Source: a virus. Taken from it: 41,696 nt of DNA. Position numbers and translations under genes: made by a program. Location: IMG/VR virus record IMGVR_UViG_3300046804_002027, positions 1 through 41,696 of that record; one strand, given 5' to 3'. Position 1 is the first letter of the stretch; every line of letters begins with the position of its first letter. The notes beneath the pieces are model-generated. The model had not been told where the DNA came from, made no database searches, and saw only the letters and a list, made by a program, of their open reading frames with translations. Positions 1,703 to 38,647 of this stretch are shown here, in pieces.

Positions 1703-2356
1703 TTACCACTCAATATTGGTAGATGTGACAGATGGTGTATCAAAACCAAAATAGAACGACTCTTGTTCTGGATAAGGAACTTCACGTACCACCTTATCAA
1801 GATTGTGGTATTCAAAATTTCCCCACTCAAATGGTTCACTATCTGGCTTACTTGGAATCAAGGTGTAGTTTGTTTCTGTACCTTGTCCATTACGCTTTAA
1901 CTTCCATTGAAGATTTGAAATGCTTCCAGTCTCCAAGGCATATTCACGAATTGTATTAAATGCTGATTGCTTACTAATTCCTTGTGACCATACCGCAATA
2001 TATGGATCTTCTAGGCCATCATCAACAAGAACATTGCAATAAAAACGCATACGTGCCTTCCAGCCACTCTTTGGTTCTTTTCTAGCCATTTCGCAACCAA
2101 AGCAACGACCTTCTGTATCTTGAGTACATGCAGCCTTACGCTTATAATCTTTTGGATTTGTATGCTCGGCAACAACTACAGCCAAGCCTCTTGATTCATT
2201 ATAACTTGCAGAGTCTTCATCTAACTCTTCTACAAAACGGATCTTTGCTGCCTGTCCATCAGCCAACTTAACCCATCTTACTTTAATTGCATTGCTATCA
2301 TATTTTGGTTTGTCGAGCAGGGCATTAATGTTTTTGAGTCCCTTTACTACGCTCAT
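1703..2356 (-). CDS. gp32-like single-stranded DNA-binding protein
   Basis: This 217-residue protein is probably the replication ssDNA-binding protein. It contains a putative zinc site formed by H65, C77, C85 and C88 (CTQDTEGRCFGC), whose order and spacing closely resemble the His-Cys-Cys-Cys zinc ligands of T4 gp32. The later segment WKLKRNGQGTETNYTLIP fits an OB-fold strand region of the same family. The C-terminus has acidic residues but lacks the long acidic tail of T4 gp32. The ATG at 2356 is preceded by a good Shine-Dalgarno sequence (AAGGAG, about 7 bases upstream). The gene lies directly upstream of the polymerase gene, with four bases between them, which fits a joint role at the fork. 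Overall family assignment is strong; DNA binding is inferred from the family. Confidence 0.85.
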   Translation of the reverse strand: MSVVKGLKNINALLDKPKYDSNAIKVRWVKLADGQAAKIRFVEELDEDSASYNESRGLAVVVAEHTNPKDYKRKAACTQDTEGRCFGCEMARKEPKSGWKARMRFYCNVLVDDGLEDPYIAVWSQGISKQSAFNTIREYALETGSISNLQWKLKRNGQGTETNYTLIPSKPDSEPFEWGNFEYHNLDKVVREVPYPEQESFYFGFDTPSVTSTNIEW

Positions 2357-2357
2357 A

Positions 2358-3827
2358 TTATTCTCCTTTGTTTTTTATTTTTTGTAAAAATTCAATATGA
2401 TCAATTCCATTATTGCTGGATAACTGCTTTATTGCTTTTACACTTTTATTATACTCCTCAATCTCAGTTATGTCAAGTTCAATACAATTTTTATGCATTT
2501 TGTTTCCAGCATAAAGAGACATCCAACTATAATTAGGCCATTTTAAAATTTCATAGTCTAAAACATCAAATATATTTTTATCTATAGTATTTGTATTCAT
2601 AATATTTTCAAAATCGTTTATTTTTTTTGGAGATGTATATTTACCATTAAATAATTTCCAAAATTCAGTATCAATTTTATTTGTTTTATAATGAAAATGT
2701 AAAAATGAGGCAAGGCTAATTTGGCTTAAAACAAAATTTTTATTATATAAATCTTGTATATTATTATCTATATTTTTAATATATTTAGGAAAAAAATAAA
2801 TTAAAAAATAATACATTTGGCTAATTGCTGTAGATATTGATGTGGCTTCTATTGGTTCAAAAAATGATGATGAAAGTCCATTTGAAAAACAATTTTTAAT
2901 CCAGGGTTGTTTTAAAAATCCTGGATCATAAGAAAAATTTCCAATAAACTGAATTTCATTTCCATATAGTTTAATTAATTCATCTTTTGCTTCCTGTTCT
3001 GTTATATAGTTTCCATCATAAACATATCCACATCCATACCTATGCTGTAGTGGTATTTTCCATGACCATCCATATTTCATTGCTGTTGCATCAGTATATG
3101 GATAATATTTATCATCACTTGGTAAAAATGCTGTTAAAGAATTTGTTGCTGGCAAAAGATGCGACATTGACTGCCATTCTGCGTTATAATGTTTTTTTAT
3201 TATAATTTTATTAAATCCGCTACAATCTACAACAAAGTCACAATCAATAGTAGAATTATCTAAAAGAATAATTTTAGATATATTTTCTTTATTATCTTTT
3301 TCTATATCTAAAACTTTTGCATCAATAATTTTAATATTATTTTTTAATGCAATGTCTTCTAAAAATAATACAAGTTTTTTTGCATCTATATGAAACCCAT
3401 AATTTATTGGATCACTTATATCTATTTTTTTATTTTTAACTAAATGATATAAATAGTTTATATCATTTAAATTTGTTTTTAAATTAACTGCTACTTTATA
3501 TAAATTTAAAACATTATTATCAATTGTATGATTTTTATCTTTATAAAAATCATAAAAACCGTGAAACCAACTAGAGTTTTCTAAATCCCAATTATTAAAC
3601 ATTACTCCATGTTTAATTGTTGCCCCTGTGTTTTCTATAAAATCTTCAATTGATATATCTAAATCTTTTAAAAAAGAATTAATTGCTGGAGTAAGTCCTT
3701 CTCCAGGTCCAAGCACACCTATTTCTTTACTTCTTATAACTGTTATATCTATATCTGGAAACTTCTTTTTAAATAATAAAGCAGATATACATCCTGCGGT
3801 TCCTCCACCTATAACAACTACGTTCAT
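2358..3827 (-). CDS. flavin-dependent (tryptophan-type) halogenase
   Basis: This 489-residue protein belongs to the FADH2-dependent halogenases, which use O2 and halide to halogenate aromatic substrates. The N-terminus has the FAD-binding GGGTAG motif (residues 7-12) and a GPGEGLTP segment. K72 in GATIKHG aligns with the conserved catalytic lysine that carries hypohalous acid. WSWKIP at 254-259 is the diagnostic WxWxIP motif. FFEPIEATS (322-330) aligns with the region carrying the active-site glutamate, although the serine usually following that glutamate is alanine here. The gene overlaps the preceding membrane-protein gene by ATGA and lies between primase and ssDNA-binding protein genes. 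It is visibly richer in A/T than its neighbours, hinting at separate acquisition. No flavin reductase is in the window, so FADH2 would come from the host. The substrate is unknown. Confidence 0.9.
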   Translation of the reverse strand: MNVVVIGGGTAGCISALLFKKKFPDIDITVIRSKEIGVLGPGEGLTPAINSFLKDLDISIEDFIENTGATIKHGVMFNNWDLENSSWFHGFYDFYKDKNHTIDNNVLNLYKVAVNLKTNLNDINYLYHLVKNKKIDISDPINYGFHIDAKKLVLFLEDIALKNNIKIIDAKVLDIEKDNKENISKIILLDNSTIDCDFVVDCSGFNKIIIKKHYNAEWQSMSHLLPATNSLTAFLPSDDKYYPYTDATAMKYGWSWKIPLQHRYGCGYVYDGNYITEQEAKDELIKLYGNEIQFIGNFSYDPGFLKQPWIKNCFSNGLSSSFFEPIEATSISTAISQMYYFLIYFFPKYIKNIDNNIQDLYNKNFVLSQISLASFLHFHYKTNKIDTEFWKLFNGKYTSPKKINDFENIMNTNTIDKNIFDVLDYEILKWPNYSWMSLYAGNKMHKNCIELDITEIEEYNKSVKAIKQLSSNNGIDHIEFLQKIKNKGE

Positions 3828-4117
3828 AAAATTAATCCAAAATATTTAGCAATATATGCAACCGCTAAAATTGACCACAAAATGTTAAACCAAATTAAAG
3901 TAGGTATAGTTTTTACAGTAGAAGACCAAATTAATCCTAAACTTGAAACTAATGCAAAAATATAAAACCACCAGACACTGATGTCAAATAATAAACCAGG
4001 AATAATAATTGTTCCTTTTGCAACAAACGCAAAAAATTCAACAGTATTTGCTTTAGTCCAGTAGGATCTTTTTGTCATTGTTTTTAATGCATGATACCAC
4101 TGTAAATGTTTTCTCAT
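3824..4117 (-). CDS. small three-helix membrane protein, unknown function
   Basis: This 97-residue protein has a basic, polar N-terminus (about 30 residues) followed by three hydrophobic stretches: roughly residues 31-49, 50-68 and 74-95, rich in W, F, I and L. It therefore looks like a small integral membrane protein with three transmembrane helices. I do not recognise a family. Its start overlaps the primase stop (ATGA) and its stop overlaps the halogenase start (ATGA), so it is translationally coupled to both. A weak Shine-Dalgarno sequence (AGGAAA) precedes the ATG. The tight coupling to the halogenase makes a shared acquisition or a shared role possible, for example tethering or transport, but nothing in the sequence proves that. 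It is not an obvious holin: the gene lies in a replication operon with no endolysin beside it. Confidence 0.7.
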   Translation of the reverse strand: MRKHLQWYHALKTMTKRSYWTKANTVEFFAFVAKGTIIIPGLLFDISVWWFYIFALVSSLGLIWSSTVKTIPTLIWFNILWSILAVAYIAKYFGLIL

Positions 4118-5058
4118 AGGTTTCCTATAATGCTAGATATTGTTTTTGTATTCAATGTATTAAGTATATCATTATCCATCATATCTCCAATATCTTTATA
4201 CTTTTTGTCTAATTGTATTTTAGATACCCTGGAGCCAAGTTTATCAATAAGTTTATTTGCCATATTATTTCCAGCATCGTCATTATCAGATATAATGTAA
4301 ATATCATTAAAATATTTTTTTAATAGTTCTATTTGAGAACTAGAAACATTTGCTCCAAGAGTTGCAACTGCTGGAAGACCAACCTGGTCTATTCTTATGG
4401 CATCAAAAGATGATTCAACAACATAAACTTTATTTGATTGTTTTACTCTATGAAGATTAAACAATATTTTACTTTTAGGAAGGCCTGGAGTATTTTTAAA
4501 TTCTTTCCCTTCAATAGTTCTTGCTACAAACCCAATAGTCATTCCATCTGGAGATTGAACTGGTATCGTAACCATATCTTGTTTTTCTGAAAATCCAAGA
4601 CTAAATTTTTCAATAGATTGTTTTGTTATTCTTCTGCCTTCAAAATATCTAATTGCTCTTGGAGAATCTACCGCTTGATTGGTTAATCTTTTAATTAATA
4701 ACTCATCATATTGAATAAATTCTTTTGGTTTATACAATTTTTTATTTACTAAATCTTCTATATTTGATTCTTTTTCTTTGCTTTTAATAAAACGAATAGA
4801 TTCAAAGTATGATCTTCCAGTTGTTTTCATAATTAACTCTTGCAACTCTGAAGTTTGCTGGCAACCAAAGCAAAAAAATAATCCAGACTCTTTAGAAACT
4901 TCTCCTGCTGGAGTTCTTGTATTATTGTGATATGGACAAAATATTATAAAGTCCGAGCCTACCTCTGACTCAATGGTGATTCCTGATCCGATGAGAACTC
5001 TTTTAATTTGTTCTTCTGTAAAGATATTGGTTTGCTTCCGTCTACTGCGATTATCCAT
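4114..5058 (-). CDS. DnaG-type DNA primase
   Basis: This 314-residue protein would make RNA primers at the fork. An N-terminal CHC2-type zinc finger is formed by C41, H44, C63 and C66 (CPYHNN ... FFCFGC). A Toprim catalytic domain follows, with VVESSFDAI (E215 as the catalytic glutamate) and ISDNDDAG (D258 and D260 as metal ligands). It is shorter than bacterial DnaG (about 580-600 residues) because the C-terminal helicase-interacting domain is absent, which is common in phage primases. The ATG at 5058 has AGGGAG about 11 bases upstream and no in-frame alternative start precedes the zinc finger. This forces an unusual 100-base overlap with the upstream 113-residue reading frame. It sits directly downstream of the helicase in the same operon. 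Confidence 0.9.
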   Translation of the reverse strand: MDNRSRRKQTNIFTEEQIKRVLIGSGITIESEVGSDFIIFCPYHNNTRTPAGEVSKESGLFFCFGCQQTSELQELIMKTTGRSYFESIRFIKSKEKESNIEDLVNKKLYKPKEFIQYDELLIKRLTNQAVDSPRAIRYFEGRRITKQSIEKFSLGFSEKQDMVTIPVQSPDGMTIGFVARTIEGKEFKNTPGLPKSKILFNLHRVKQSNKVYVVESSFDAIRIDQVGLPAVATLGANVSSSQIELLKKYFNDIYIISDNDDAGNNMANKLIDKLGSRVSKIQLDKKYKDIGDMMDNDILNTLNTKTISSIIGNL

Positions 5059-5300
5059 TCTGTCTTTTTTCTCCCTACAAATATTCCATATATTGTCAAT
5101 TTAAAATTAAAAGATTCTTTCTCACTATTATAGTCTAGCGTAAAACTGGGTTCTATGTCAATTCTTGGAACATATCCAGTTTCCCGCATCTGAACAATTA
5201 ATAGTCTTATATATTCTTCTTTAAGTCTTGGAACAGTAGCCTCATCTTTAATGGCCCCATCGACCATAAAATTTTTAATCGGCTTATGATTAAAGAACAT
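4959..5300 (-). CDS. conserved-looking phage hypothetical protein (113 aa)
   Basis: I do not recognise a domain in this 113-residue protein. Its N-terminus is basic and helical (EATVPRLKEEYIRLLIVQMRE), and the middle is strongly beta-like (SFTLDYN, FNFKLTIYGIFVG, EWIIAVDG). This alternation of helix and strands looks like a genuine small folded protein. Its last 33 codons overlap the start of the primase gene in another frame, an overlap far longer than the ATGA junctions elsewhere. No Shine-Dalgarno sequence precedes the ATG; a TATAAT lies five bases upstream, so a promoter with a very short leader is possible. Its position between helicase and primase suggests a replication accessory role, which is inference only. 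Confidence 0.65.
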   Translation of the reverse strand: MFFNHKPIKNFMVDGAIKDEATVPRLKEEYIRLLIVQMRETGYVPRIDIEPSFTLDYNSEKESFNFKLTIYGIFVGRKKTEWIIAVDGSKPISLQKNKLKEFSSDQESPLSQR

Positions 5301-35750: not shown

Positions 35751-35773
35751 TCCTGACTCTTATTATATCAGGA
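35751..35773. repeat. inverted repeat spanning promoter and Shine-Dalgarno sequence
   Basis: TCCTGA and TCAGGA arms (35751-35756 and 35768-35773) flank the -10 of the LamG-like gene. One arm includes part of its Shine-Dalgarno sequence and the other the reductase stop codon. Confidence 0.5.
35762..35770 (-). promoter_or_regulatory. extended -10 promoter upstream of LamG-like protein gene
   Basis: TGATATAAT overlaps the stop codon of the reductase gene and lies between the arms of an inverted repeat that includes the downstream Shine-Dalgarno sequence. The leader would be about 10 bases. Confidence 0.55.
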
Positions 35774-37801
35774 ACCAGTCTTAATCTCACAATAATCTGT
35801 TGTACAATACATTTCACCGATAGAGTCTAGATTCTCTACACCATCATAAATTGCAGACCAATCAATTTTTGCAATTTGTCCAACATAACTATCATATTCT
35901 TCTTGTGTAATTTGTTGATATGGCTGTTGAGGATAAATTGTATTTCCCATTGGCAAAAATGAAACAGCCTTTAGTTGACCTTCATACATATGAAGTGCTG
36001 GAGCAATATTTTTTGTTTCTGATTCTTTATCAAAAGATAATGTTACAGAAACACCATTATCAGACCAATATTTTTGTGTTGTTGCAGCAAGTCCAATTTT
36101 TTCAAACAAGGTTACATCTTTTTCTGACCTTGGATGTCCAGAGTGTACTGGGAAATAAACAACCATTGTGTTGGCTGAAACCAAGTCTGGTTCAGTCTTA
36201 TACCCTGCTGCTTTAAATAAATGCATCATCGGATCTTGATCGCTAAACCTAATTGCACGAAGGAAGTATTCTCCTCCAACTGGCCAGTGAACTCCTGGAG
36301 ATGCTCCAGAAAGTAATGATACAGAACCTGATGGCTTAACTGTTGTTACACGAATTGATTCACGAACACAAAGCCATTCTGAATACTGTTTATCATATTT
36401 ACGAATTGTTTGATATCCTTCATCCATCCAATCACGAGTTGCTGGAAGTCCATGAGCGTCTGCAAAAGATGCAATGCCAGTCAAAGATGTTCCAATTCTA
36501 CGATTGCGTTGCATAATTCCATTTGTAATCTGCCAGTGTGTTGGAACGAGAGTTACTGTCTTTCCATAAAGATATGCAAACTTTAAAGTACGTAAAAAGT
36601 CTTCTTTATCTGTATGACGATTTAAGTGAACCTCAACAAGTGTGCAAAGTTCGTATGACTCTAATGGTTGTTCTGCACATGGATTAAAGCCCATTACACG
36701 ATAATCTTTTCCATCTGCAGGATCTGCAAGACGACCATAATTTCTTGCAACATCTAGCCAAATAAATCCTGGCTCTCCATTGTTAGAAATTAAATCTACA
36801 TAATCTTCATACTTTGTTCCAACAGTTGCTGCAATAGAGTTATTGCTCATCCATGCCCAACCTGGATTTTCTAAATCAAATGAATTTCTTTCTGGAAACA
36901 CTTCAGAATTTTTTAAATTAATAAAATCATCGTCTCCAGCAGAACCAAGCGCAAGCGTTGCTGATCTTCTTACATTTCCAGAAACAACACAAGTTCCAAT
37001 TAAGTTTACAACATCAACTATTGCTCTTGAATCTAGGGTCTCTCCGACTCTAGAGCCAATAACTTTTCTTATCCTTTGATGTAGATCAATCAATGGTTGT
37101 GGACCGCTAGAAACGCCTCCAAAGCCTTTAATAGGTGCTCCTAGTGGTCTTATCAAGTCATACTTAAACTCTTGTATATTTTGATTTGGTCTTAACATAG
37201 AGTTAATCAATAATCTTACAGATTCTACCCAACCTTCACGAGTATCTGGAATTTCATAAATAACAACGGGTTCTGTAGGACCATAGATTAACATTTCTTT
37301 ATCTTGACCAATTGTGTCAAATCCAACTCCAACTCCAAGCATTAATGCATCCATTACCCAAGCAAATAATGCTCCTGGATCGTTTCTATCGATATCTCTT
37401 GTTGATACCATTGCACAGTTTTGAAGAGCAGCAGAGTTACGCTTTTCCATAGTCATTGGTGTTCCAAATGCCCATAGACCTCTTCCTGGCGGGGTCCACT
37501 TAAGATTAAACATACGATCAAAGGCTTCTTGTGCAGATTTTTGAGCCTTATAATCATTCCAAGGTAGTCTGTTTTCCTTAGCATGATTCTTTTGTACTGA
37601 ATACATACCTTCAATTACTCTTTTACAAACCTCATGCCATCTTTCTTTCTTGCCGTCTTCTTTTACTCTTGAGTATGTACGAATAAAAGTGATCTCTCCA
37701 AGTGAGTTAAGACCAGCATCCTTAAAGCCAAATGGTGGCTCAATTCCTACATATTTGTTAACAAATTCATCTGAAAGACGAAAAGAAAAAACATCTGACA
37801 T
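35768..37801 (-). CDS. nrdJ: adenosylcobalamin-dependent ribonucleoside-triphosphate reductase (class II)
   Basis: This 677-residue enzyme reduces ribonucleotides to deoxyribonucleotides using adenosylcobalamin, supplying DNA precursors. It is of the monomeric Lactobacillus leichmannii type. FNPCAEQ gives the thiyl cysteine C375 and catalytic E377; C129 (in LQNCAMVS) and C386 form the active-site disulfide pair, and the spacing from C375 to C386 (11) equals that in the Lactobacillus enzyme. The C-terminal YCTTDYC gives the redox-relay pair C666/C671. VTTVKPSGSVSLLSGASPG is the phosphate-binding region. The length is slightly below the 739 residues of the Lactobacillus enzyme. ATG at 37801 has AGGAG 10 bases upstream and a promoter TTTACA-17-TACAAT. 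Its place among structural genes is unusual. Confidence 0.95.
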   Translation of the reverse strand: MSDVFSFRLSDEFVNKYVGIEPPFGFKDAGLNSLGEITFIRTYSRVKEDGKKERWHEVCKRVIEGMYSVQKNHAKENRLPWNDYKAQKSAQEAFDRMFNLKWTPPGRGLWAFGTPMTMEKRNSAALQNCAMVSTRDIDRNDPGALFAWVMDALMLGVGVGFDTIGQDKEMLIYGPTEPVVIYEIPDTREGWVESVRLLINSMLRPNQNIQEFKYDLIRPLGAPIKGFGGVSSGPQPLIDLHQRIRKVIGSRVGETLDSRAIVDVVNLIGTCVVSGNVRRSATLALGSAGDDDFINLKNSEVFPERNSFDLENPGWAWMSNNSIAATVGTKYEDYVDLISNNGEPGFIWLDVARNYGRLADPADGKDYRVMGFNPCAEQPLESYELCTLVEVHLNRHTDKEDFLRTLKFAYLYGKTVTLVPTHWQITNGIMQRNRRIGTSLTGIASFADAHGLPATRDWMDEGYQTIRKYDKQYSEWLCVRESIRVTTVKPSGSVSLLSGASPGVHWPVGGEYFLRAIRFSDQDPMMHLFKAAGYKTEPDLVSANTMVVYFPVHSGHPRSEKDVTLFEKIGLAATTQKYWSDNGVSVTLSFDKESETKNIAPALHMYEGQLKAVSFLPMGNTIYPQQPYQQITQEEYDSYVGQIAKIDWSAIYDGVENLDSIGEMYCTTDYCEIKTGS

Positions 37802-37915: not shown

Positions 37916-38647
37916 CTATTTATACTCTTTTTTATTCCAAAAAAATTTTTTATATCCATTAGAAAACATACTTCTTACTTTAAAACGTTGATATCTTAAA
38001 CCAGAAATTGGATCAAACTTTTTATTAATTGAAGATTCCCAATTATCTCTTTTAAATGGAACTACTTGAACTAATGGTGTACCCATTTTTAATATTCCCT
38101 TAAAATTTTTTTGAACAAAAAAAGAAAAATTTCCATCTGATTGAAATACATCAGTATCTATAATTGCTGAAACTGTTCTTAGGGGGCTTCTATCTTTGTG
38201 CTGTGGATCTATAAATAAAGAACTATGTCCTTTTTCTGTTGATACAAGCCAAACCATGTTTATTCTTATAACATAATCTATTTCATTATCTTTATCAATT
38301 GGATAATGAGACACTTGTTCTGATGAATGAAAAGACATTATAGGATATTTTAAATTTGCAAATTGTGGTGGAATATCAAATTTTGGTGGACTAACAGTTG
38401 TATCTATAAAAATATCAATAGGACATTTTAAAATATATCCACAAGACATAATATCAAATATTGCTGGACATTTTTTTACAGTTATTTTTTGAAAACCATT
38501 ATAAACAGTTTTATCATTATTAAAATAAACTGGCTGCTCTTTAAACCAGTCTGGTAAGTTTTTAGAAATTGCCTCTGGTTCTGGAAAAATATCAACTAGT
38601 TTTGGATATACGTTATTAAATTTTATTTTTTTGTTTTTTTTAAACAT
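37916..38647 (-). CDS. uncharacterised phage protein, possibly DUF6065-like
   Basis: This 243-residue protein contains a conserved-looking core: KITVKKCPAIFDIMSCGYIL, an IDIFIDTTVSPPKFDIP segment, INMVWLVSTEKGHSSLF, and GTPLVQVVPFKRDNWE near the end. I recall related proteins in marine and freshwater phages, and the pattern of a CP segment followed by a GYIL and a final VPFKRDxW resembles DUF6065-type proteins of unknown function, perhaps a beta-barrel. That link is from memory and uncertain. The gene is very AT-rich, like the halogenase. It follows the fibronectin-type tail protein by six bases, with GAGG as Shine-Dalgarno. It may modify or chaperone that protein; no catalytic site is evident. 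Confidence 0.6.
   Translation of the reverse strand: MFKKNKKIKFNNVYPKLVDIFPEPEAISKNLPDWFKEQPVYFNNDKTVYNGFQKITVKKCPAIFDIMSCGYILKCPIDIFIDTTVSPPKFDIPPQFANLKYPIMSFHSSEQVSHYPIDKDNEIDYVIRINMVWLVSTEKGHSSLFIDPQHKDRSPLRTVSAIIDTDVFQSDGNFSFFVQKNFKGILKMGTPLVQVVPFKRDNWESSINKKFDPISGLRYQRFKVRSMFSNGYKKFFWNKKEYK

Follow-up and report, generated by a model that had tools for sequence, protein, structure and literature searches.

Flavin-dependent halogenases (FDHs) use FADH2 supplied by a reductase to form a flavin hydroperoxide and from it a hypohalous acid (HOX), which is transferred via a lysine, with the assistance of a glutamate, in an electrophilic halogenation. Described members of the family include the tryptophan halogenases PrnA, PyrH and RebH, the enzymes BrvH and 9LUQ (Pseudoalteromonas L11) and, from a virus, the iodinating VirX1 of cyanophage Syn10 (PDB 6QGM), which we take to be the 530-aa protein AGH56623 on the basis of its length and of the source phage given in the literature. 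Homologues were found in 82 of 50,697 GenBank phage records, mostly from cyanophages, in which halogenases have been reported before (PMC2984593, PMC3037559, PMC10452541), with a frequency of 20 in 153 genomes (PMC10452541); the earlier description of phage halogenases as rare was not upheld by these figures. The role of these genes has been a standing question for more than 10 years, since prnA was seen in cyanophages. Viral halogenases are already known, and the gene described here adds another to a known enzyme family; what is new at the locus is a candidate membrane partner restricted to viruses, its replacement by an AhpD-like protein in other phages and the exchange of alleles at one site. 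Both the cassette exchange and the recurrent membrane-protein partner had been overlooked in the earlier note on this DNA.

The window, by which we mean the whole stretch of DNA analysed, is a 41,696-base IMG/VR record with all of its main genes on the minus strand. Pfam and PHROG searches identified the replication neighbours of the halogenase gene as genes for a primase, a single-strand DNA-binding protein (SSB, phrog_9721), a DnaB-type helicase and a PHP-type DNA polymerase III alpha (Table 1). Portal, head and 2454-aa tape-measure proteins are encoded elsewhere in the window, from which the virus looks like a long-tailed phage, as is a class II (B12-dependent) ribonucleotide reductase (35768-37801, minus strand) that adjoins fibre-like genes ∼30 kb from the replication genes. 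The closest named relatives are Streptomyces phages of ∼130 kb (35% for the SSB and 39% for the helicase), and these, together with WhiB genes near related cassettes, indicate that the hosts are probably actinobacteria. The window belongs to a bacterial virus of lake type, and the related cassettes are those of uncultured phages whose bacterial hosts live in lakes and rivers. A small conserved protein (phrog_17515; 4959-5300, minus strand) overlaps the start of the primase gene by 100 bases and shares 69-70% identity with its counterparts in loci L002 and L003, the adjacent helicase being 99% identical.

Table 1. Features of the halogenase cassette and its borders in the window.
Feature	Position	Strand	Evidence and remarks
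Single-strand DNA-binding protein (phrog_9721)	1703..2356	-	PHROG; downstream cassette border, alignments resume at 2383-2386 in L015-L018
Flavin-dependent halogenase, 489 aa	2358..3827	-	PF04820, phrog_2928, AF2 model
Active-site glutamate E327 codon (then A328)	2847..2849	-	Aligned with the PrnA EPLEST Glu
WSWKIP motif, residues 254-259	3051..3068	-	Translation, alignment
Catalytic lysine K72 codon (in ATIKHG)	3612..3614	-	Aligned with PrnA (GAFKAAI) and VirX1 (ATYKNSI)
GGGTAG dinucleotide (flavin) motif, residues 7-12	3792..3809	-	Translation, alignment
MEM, 97-aa membrane protein, three predicted hydrophobic helices	3824..4117	-	Hydrophobic segments; adjoins halogenases in other phages
DNA primase (CHC2 + Toprim)	4114..5058	-	Pfam/PHROG; upstream border of the optional cassette

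The halogenase reading frame exists at exactly the positions annotated before, but on the minus strand, the plus strand over 2358-3827 being full of stops, and translation and alignment recovered all motifs previously pointed out in it (GGGTAG, K72, WSWKIP and EPIEATS, the last at residues 324-330). Its assignment to the tryptophan-halogenase type of FDH rather than to generic monooxygenases was likewise borne out by the motifs, by the predicted fold and by the Pfam family Trp_halogenase PF04820 (E 1.1e-91, 308 bits against a cut-off of 21, profile positions 1-444 of 458). Further matches were obtained to phrog_2928 ‘tryptophan halogenase’ (E 6e-97) and, among PDB sequences, to PrnA (3e-47), VirX1 (7e-40), PyrH and RebH; matches of this strength greatly exceed what chance would give. 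The structure prediction and superposition proposed in the earlier note gave a concordant result, as the AlphaFold2 model built from 54 viral homologues (mean pLDDT 90.5, pTM 0.90) had only FDHs as top Foldseek matches in the PDB (PyrH, BrvH, SttH, 9LUQ, Thal, PrnA and MibH; TM 0.82-0.88), with E values of the predicted structure of ∼1e-36 to PyrH and BrvH. It is therefore very probable that the product belongs to the halogenase family and has its fold.

PrnA, PyrH and RebH share this fold, the lysine, the glutamate and WxWxIP with the window protein but are only 22-28% identical to it. BrvH and 9LUQ, the top PDB matches by fold and sequence, show 23-33% identity and differ in having an E-S pair, and 9LUQ belongs to a bacterial clade. 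VirX1 resembles the window protein as a viral FDH with K, E and WxWxIP, but shares 28% identity with it, carries an EPLEST signature, is without MEM in the GenBank phages and lies in another clade, which leaves its earlier use as the close model unsupported. In the halogenase tree, which had also been called for, the window protein was placed in a viral clade that comprises 59 rows and has no bacterial members; the Syn10 protein fell into a separate starred clade, which does not support a VirX1-type affiliation. Even the closest bacterial homologues share only 23-32% identity with the window protein along their length. The best GenBank phage match (39% over 81%), the E-A-bearing halogenase AGE60413 of Pelagibacter phage HTVC008M, is of the same family, but unlike the window gene it is located between the small and large terminase genes, adjoins a phytanoyl-CoA dioxygenase gene and is without MEM.

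The window protein is likely to be a catalytically competent halogenase. K72 corresponds to the catalytic lysine at the end of the tunnel and E327 to the active-site glutamate of indole-type FDHs; among 102 phage homologues K occupies the K72 position in 101 and E the E327 position in 94. Active FDHs have been reported to share a tunnel signature, Fx.Px.Sx.G (PMC8407142), for which the window protein has FFEPIEATS, with S replaced by A and G by S, and activity is thus not to be taken for granted. This departure, and an allele class at the same site in loci L115 and L116 in which the catalytic Lys has become R and the Glu T, could speak for a halogenase-fold flavoprotein that performs another oxidation or has lost halogenation. 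We regard such a protein as very unlikely, as the window protein and its type retain K, E and WxWxIP, the E-A pair recurs in 34 of 82 bacterial homologues as well as in the solved PDB entries 2PYX, 9LU2 and 9LTB, and the protein is not placed with monooxygenases, NCBIfam monooxygenase models giving weak matches far below their cut-offs. The signature is also not exclusive, as the three PDB entries with the E-A pair were themselves deposited as FDHs. The alanine following the glutamate, to which attention had been drawn, is indeed there, but as a peculiarity of this copy it was ruled out, A being found in 79 of the 102 phage homologues. The C-terminal tryptophan-binding motif of PrnA, YYETFDYEF, corresponds to IFDVLDYEI in the window, I-F standing in place of Y443-Y444, and is unconserved in L003, L004 and L121. 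Free tryptophan as substrate is therefore unsupported, and ‘tryptophan halogenase’ should be read as the name of a family and not of a substrate.

The gene is translationally coupled to its neighbours as previously noted: the primase stop and MEM start overlap (ATGA), as do the MEM stop and the start of the halogenase, and the SSB gene, with GGAG upstream, begins 1 nt past the halogenase stop. The reported lack of a flavin reductase was reproduced among the Pfam-scanned window proteins, the record being a fragment. The halogenase gene is, as had been observed, more AT-rich than its neighbours (24.1% GC against 29.8% for the primase and 39.3% for the SSB) and has the lowest GC of the genes compared, but its GC3 of 0.118 falls within the range of the other genes of this phage (0.09-0.28), by which low GC was ruled out as a sign of recent import. 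An assembly chimera or a recently imported bacterial gene, for which the low GC and a sharp identity drop at the gene edges in some comparisons might be quoted, is extremely improbable: it is contradicted by the same arrangement in the independent contigs L002-L004, L016, L017 and L418, by the phage-like GC3, and by the purely viral clade and low identity to bacterial homologues described above.

Comparison of 154 related loci possessing both primase and SSB, a few of which are overlapping views of one contig, revealed that the halogenase gene is an optional, exchangeable cassette. The gap between the two genes measures 29-103 bp in 132 of these loci, while 21 carry a halogenase-bearing insert of 1.8-2.1 kb and one carries MEM alone. 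Alignments break close to the primase end and, just upstream of the SSB, at window 2383-2386. Locus L015 is devoid of the cassette although its flanks share >90% DNA identity with the window, and L016 is ∼90% identical outside the cassette and 54-76% inside, the respective protein identities being 99% for the SSB, 98% for the helicase, 96% for the primase and 37% for the halogenase. At least four halogenase allele types occupy this site, namely WSWKIP (window, L003, L004), WAWKV (WAWKVP; L119, L121), W[ST]F[EQ]IP (L016, L017, L018, L102, L122) and WMFNIP, which lacks the catalytic Lys and Glu (L115, L116). The last type (L115:5777-7318, L116:6902-8443), which adjoins an intact CMD/AhpD-like gene, is possibly a decayed allele or one with a new activity. 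In the tree a single starred set comprises 17 halogenases from the site or close to it, with L402 and L115 outside, and much of the diversity thus arose inside this phage group. Between the window and L016, dS is 0.4-0.5 for flanking genes and 0.92 for the halogenase, and dN/dS between close type II halogenases is 0.10-0.25; together these values point to exchange or fast divergence and, in addition, to purifying selection. The view that the exchange was extremely recent had to be softened, as the flanking genes in the L016 comparison have already diverged at synonymous sites.

MEM, encoded between primase and halogenase, gave no match in Pfam, PHROGs or NCBIfam, and was absent from the 50,697 GenBank phage records, from 72,556 plasmids and from 397 genomes of the phylum of the Streptomyces locus L211. 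It is, on the other hand, encoded in at least 319 viral-contig stretches and defines an undescribed membrane-protein family. Of 67 distinct MEM loci, 45 have a halogenase gene no more than 1.5 kb away (in 41, no more than 100 bp). The two genes are found in either order and in several genomic contexts. The AlphaFold model of MEM was of low confidence (pLDDT 65) and too weak for a fold search. The median identity is 73% for MEM as against 35% for the adjoining halogenases (correlation 0.21), and being so much more conserved, MEM may have its main contact with a conserved host component. The other partner found in the site family is a CMD/AhpD-like protein (CMD) of 174-179 aa with a C-x2-C-x3-H motif (PF02627), which peroxidase-related NCBIfam models match below cut-off. 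The CMD protein of L119 shares 86-87% identity with its counterparts in L122, L116 and L018, the adjoining halogenases being of different types. The contig of L121 (G033) has one halogenase near MEM and a second one beside a CMD/AhpD-like gene, each with a partner of its own.

In order to assess co-occurrence, PF04820, MEM and CMD were sought in whole contigs of 84 phages including the window. The presence of a halogenase or of MEM had been the reason for choosing some of these contigs, and many of them are fragments. MEM or CMD was present in 31 of 32 halogenase-bearing contigs and in 2 of 52 halogenase-free ones (Fisher p 1.7e-19). The single exception without a partner (G066) is a 41-kb fragment, and the two halogenase-free carriers are fragments of 25 and 34 kb. 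As the contigs are related, independent contrasts were drawn on a helicase, primase and SSB tree, which yielded six pairs; on average 5.7 of them agreed in direction and none was opposed (sign test, median p 0.031; 0.031-0.22 over pairings). In a first batch, contigs in which the site held MEM alone or was empty contained a halogenase in 8 of 10 cases with MEM and in 0 of 23 without (p 3e-6); this comparison, in which the genes are unlinked, is the least biased part of the test. Among the contigs searched, nine that have MEM alone at the site (G001-G006, G009, G072, G073) carry their halogenase at a distance of 7-31 kb from it. The label ‘beside MEM’ changes at least eight times on the halogenase tree and extends to distant halogenases including VirX1 relatives, from which it follows that the association arose repeatedly. 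That halogenases in this test nearly always come with MEM or a peroxidase-like substitute points to an enzyme in need of a partner for its task.

Another family, phrog_7084, was considered as a third component and rejected: it adjoins 24 of the 102 phage halogenases, yet is common in halogenase-free relatives, and as a control its link with the halogenase was not significant (Fisher p 0.15). Its window member (37916-38647, minus strand) belongs to a family of which a related contig may contain as many as six copies, and the homologue in L330 shows a weak DUF6065 match.

These data have to be weighed against a self-sufficient soluble enzyme whose substrate would be a diffusible metabolite of the host, such as an indole or a defence molecule, with MEM and CMD as separate morons that merely share sites and lineages. 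To our knowledge all characterised FDHs (PrnA, RebH, VirX1) function without a membrane subunit, the space between primase and SSB is a hot spot for insertions, and 61 of the 102 collected phage halogenases lack an adjacent MEM or CMD; the last figure and the absence of MEM from GenBank phages imply that the FDH family as a whole is independent of MEM. We nevertheless consider separate morons unlikely for the present cassette, as MEM or CMD co-occurs with halogenases even kilobases apart, in both orders, at several sites and with distant halogenase clades, and the comparable accessory family phrog_7084 shows no such tracking. A functional partnership between halogenase and MEM is, from the gene distribution, quite likely.

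We thus favour, with a probability of about 0.5, an optional metabolic cassette composed of a PrnA-type FDH and a dedicated MEM, in which the enzyme would depend on its partner and would probably be membrane-associated. According to this proposal, FADH2 would be provided by host reductases, the halogenase would form HOX from O2 and halide close to the flavin, and HOX would pass through the tunnel to K72 so that, with E327 assisting, an electron-rich aromatic compound would be halogenated with Cl, Br or I. MEM could anchor the halogenase at the host inner membrane or give access to a substrate or product there, an action by membrane localisation that we put forward tentatively; alternatively it might supply halide or a lipid-phase substrate. 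Probably MEM would also touch something conserved in the host. The CMD/AhpD-like protein found in place of MEM in other phages perhaps clears peroxide from uncoupled flavin oxidation, and its occurrence suggests that such peroxide may be a burden relieved by the partner. As the catalytic subunit diversifies and is swapped while MEM remains nearly constant, halide or substrate specificity might be exchanged on a constant platform. The strictest form of the proposal is rather doubtful, namely a two-component halogenase whose catalytic subunit would be useless without the virus-only MEM as anchor or as feeder of halide or lipid-phase substrate, with an AhpD-like substitute in sister phages and with specificity swapped at a fixed genomic site while the membrane platform stays constant. 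If true, a halogenase system bound to the membrane would be a new type of FDH, and a small conserved protein that tracks the halogenase offers a handle on its location, partner and substrate that can be tested by co-expression. For biocatalysis, the aquatic phages hold a varied pool of halogenases, and a single site already yields alleles with motif changes.

A further alternative is that the halogenase modifies virion proteins such as tail fibres instead of a metabolite. Related phage halogenases are often located among tail-fibre, adhesin and collagen-like genes, as in DSL-LC01, that of S-SRM01 adjoins the gp37-gp38 adhesin tip, those of L356 and L254 lie among structural genes, and 2OG-Fe oxygenase genes are frequent neighbours. 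The window gene, by contrast, belongs to a replication operon, close relatives have their replication-operon copy at the same site, and a partner in the membrane would fit poorly with a virion substrate in the cytoplasm; we consider modification of virion proteins unlikely.

Two further arrangements were observed among the MEM-bearing contigs. Contig G075, to which L370 belongs, has an intact halogenase (82364-83949) adjoining MEM and a second halogenase-family reading at 111672-112811, consisting of two separate matches in one open frame. In L408 (2296-6285) and L276 (4979-7793), genes for an APS-kinase-like protein, a DUF2061 membrane protein, a halogenase and MEM follow one another in a row, with a sulfotransferase-like gene also present and WhiB close by in L408; sulfation and halogenation genes adjoin each other here in a probable actinophage.
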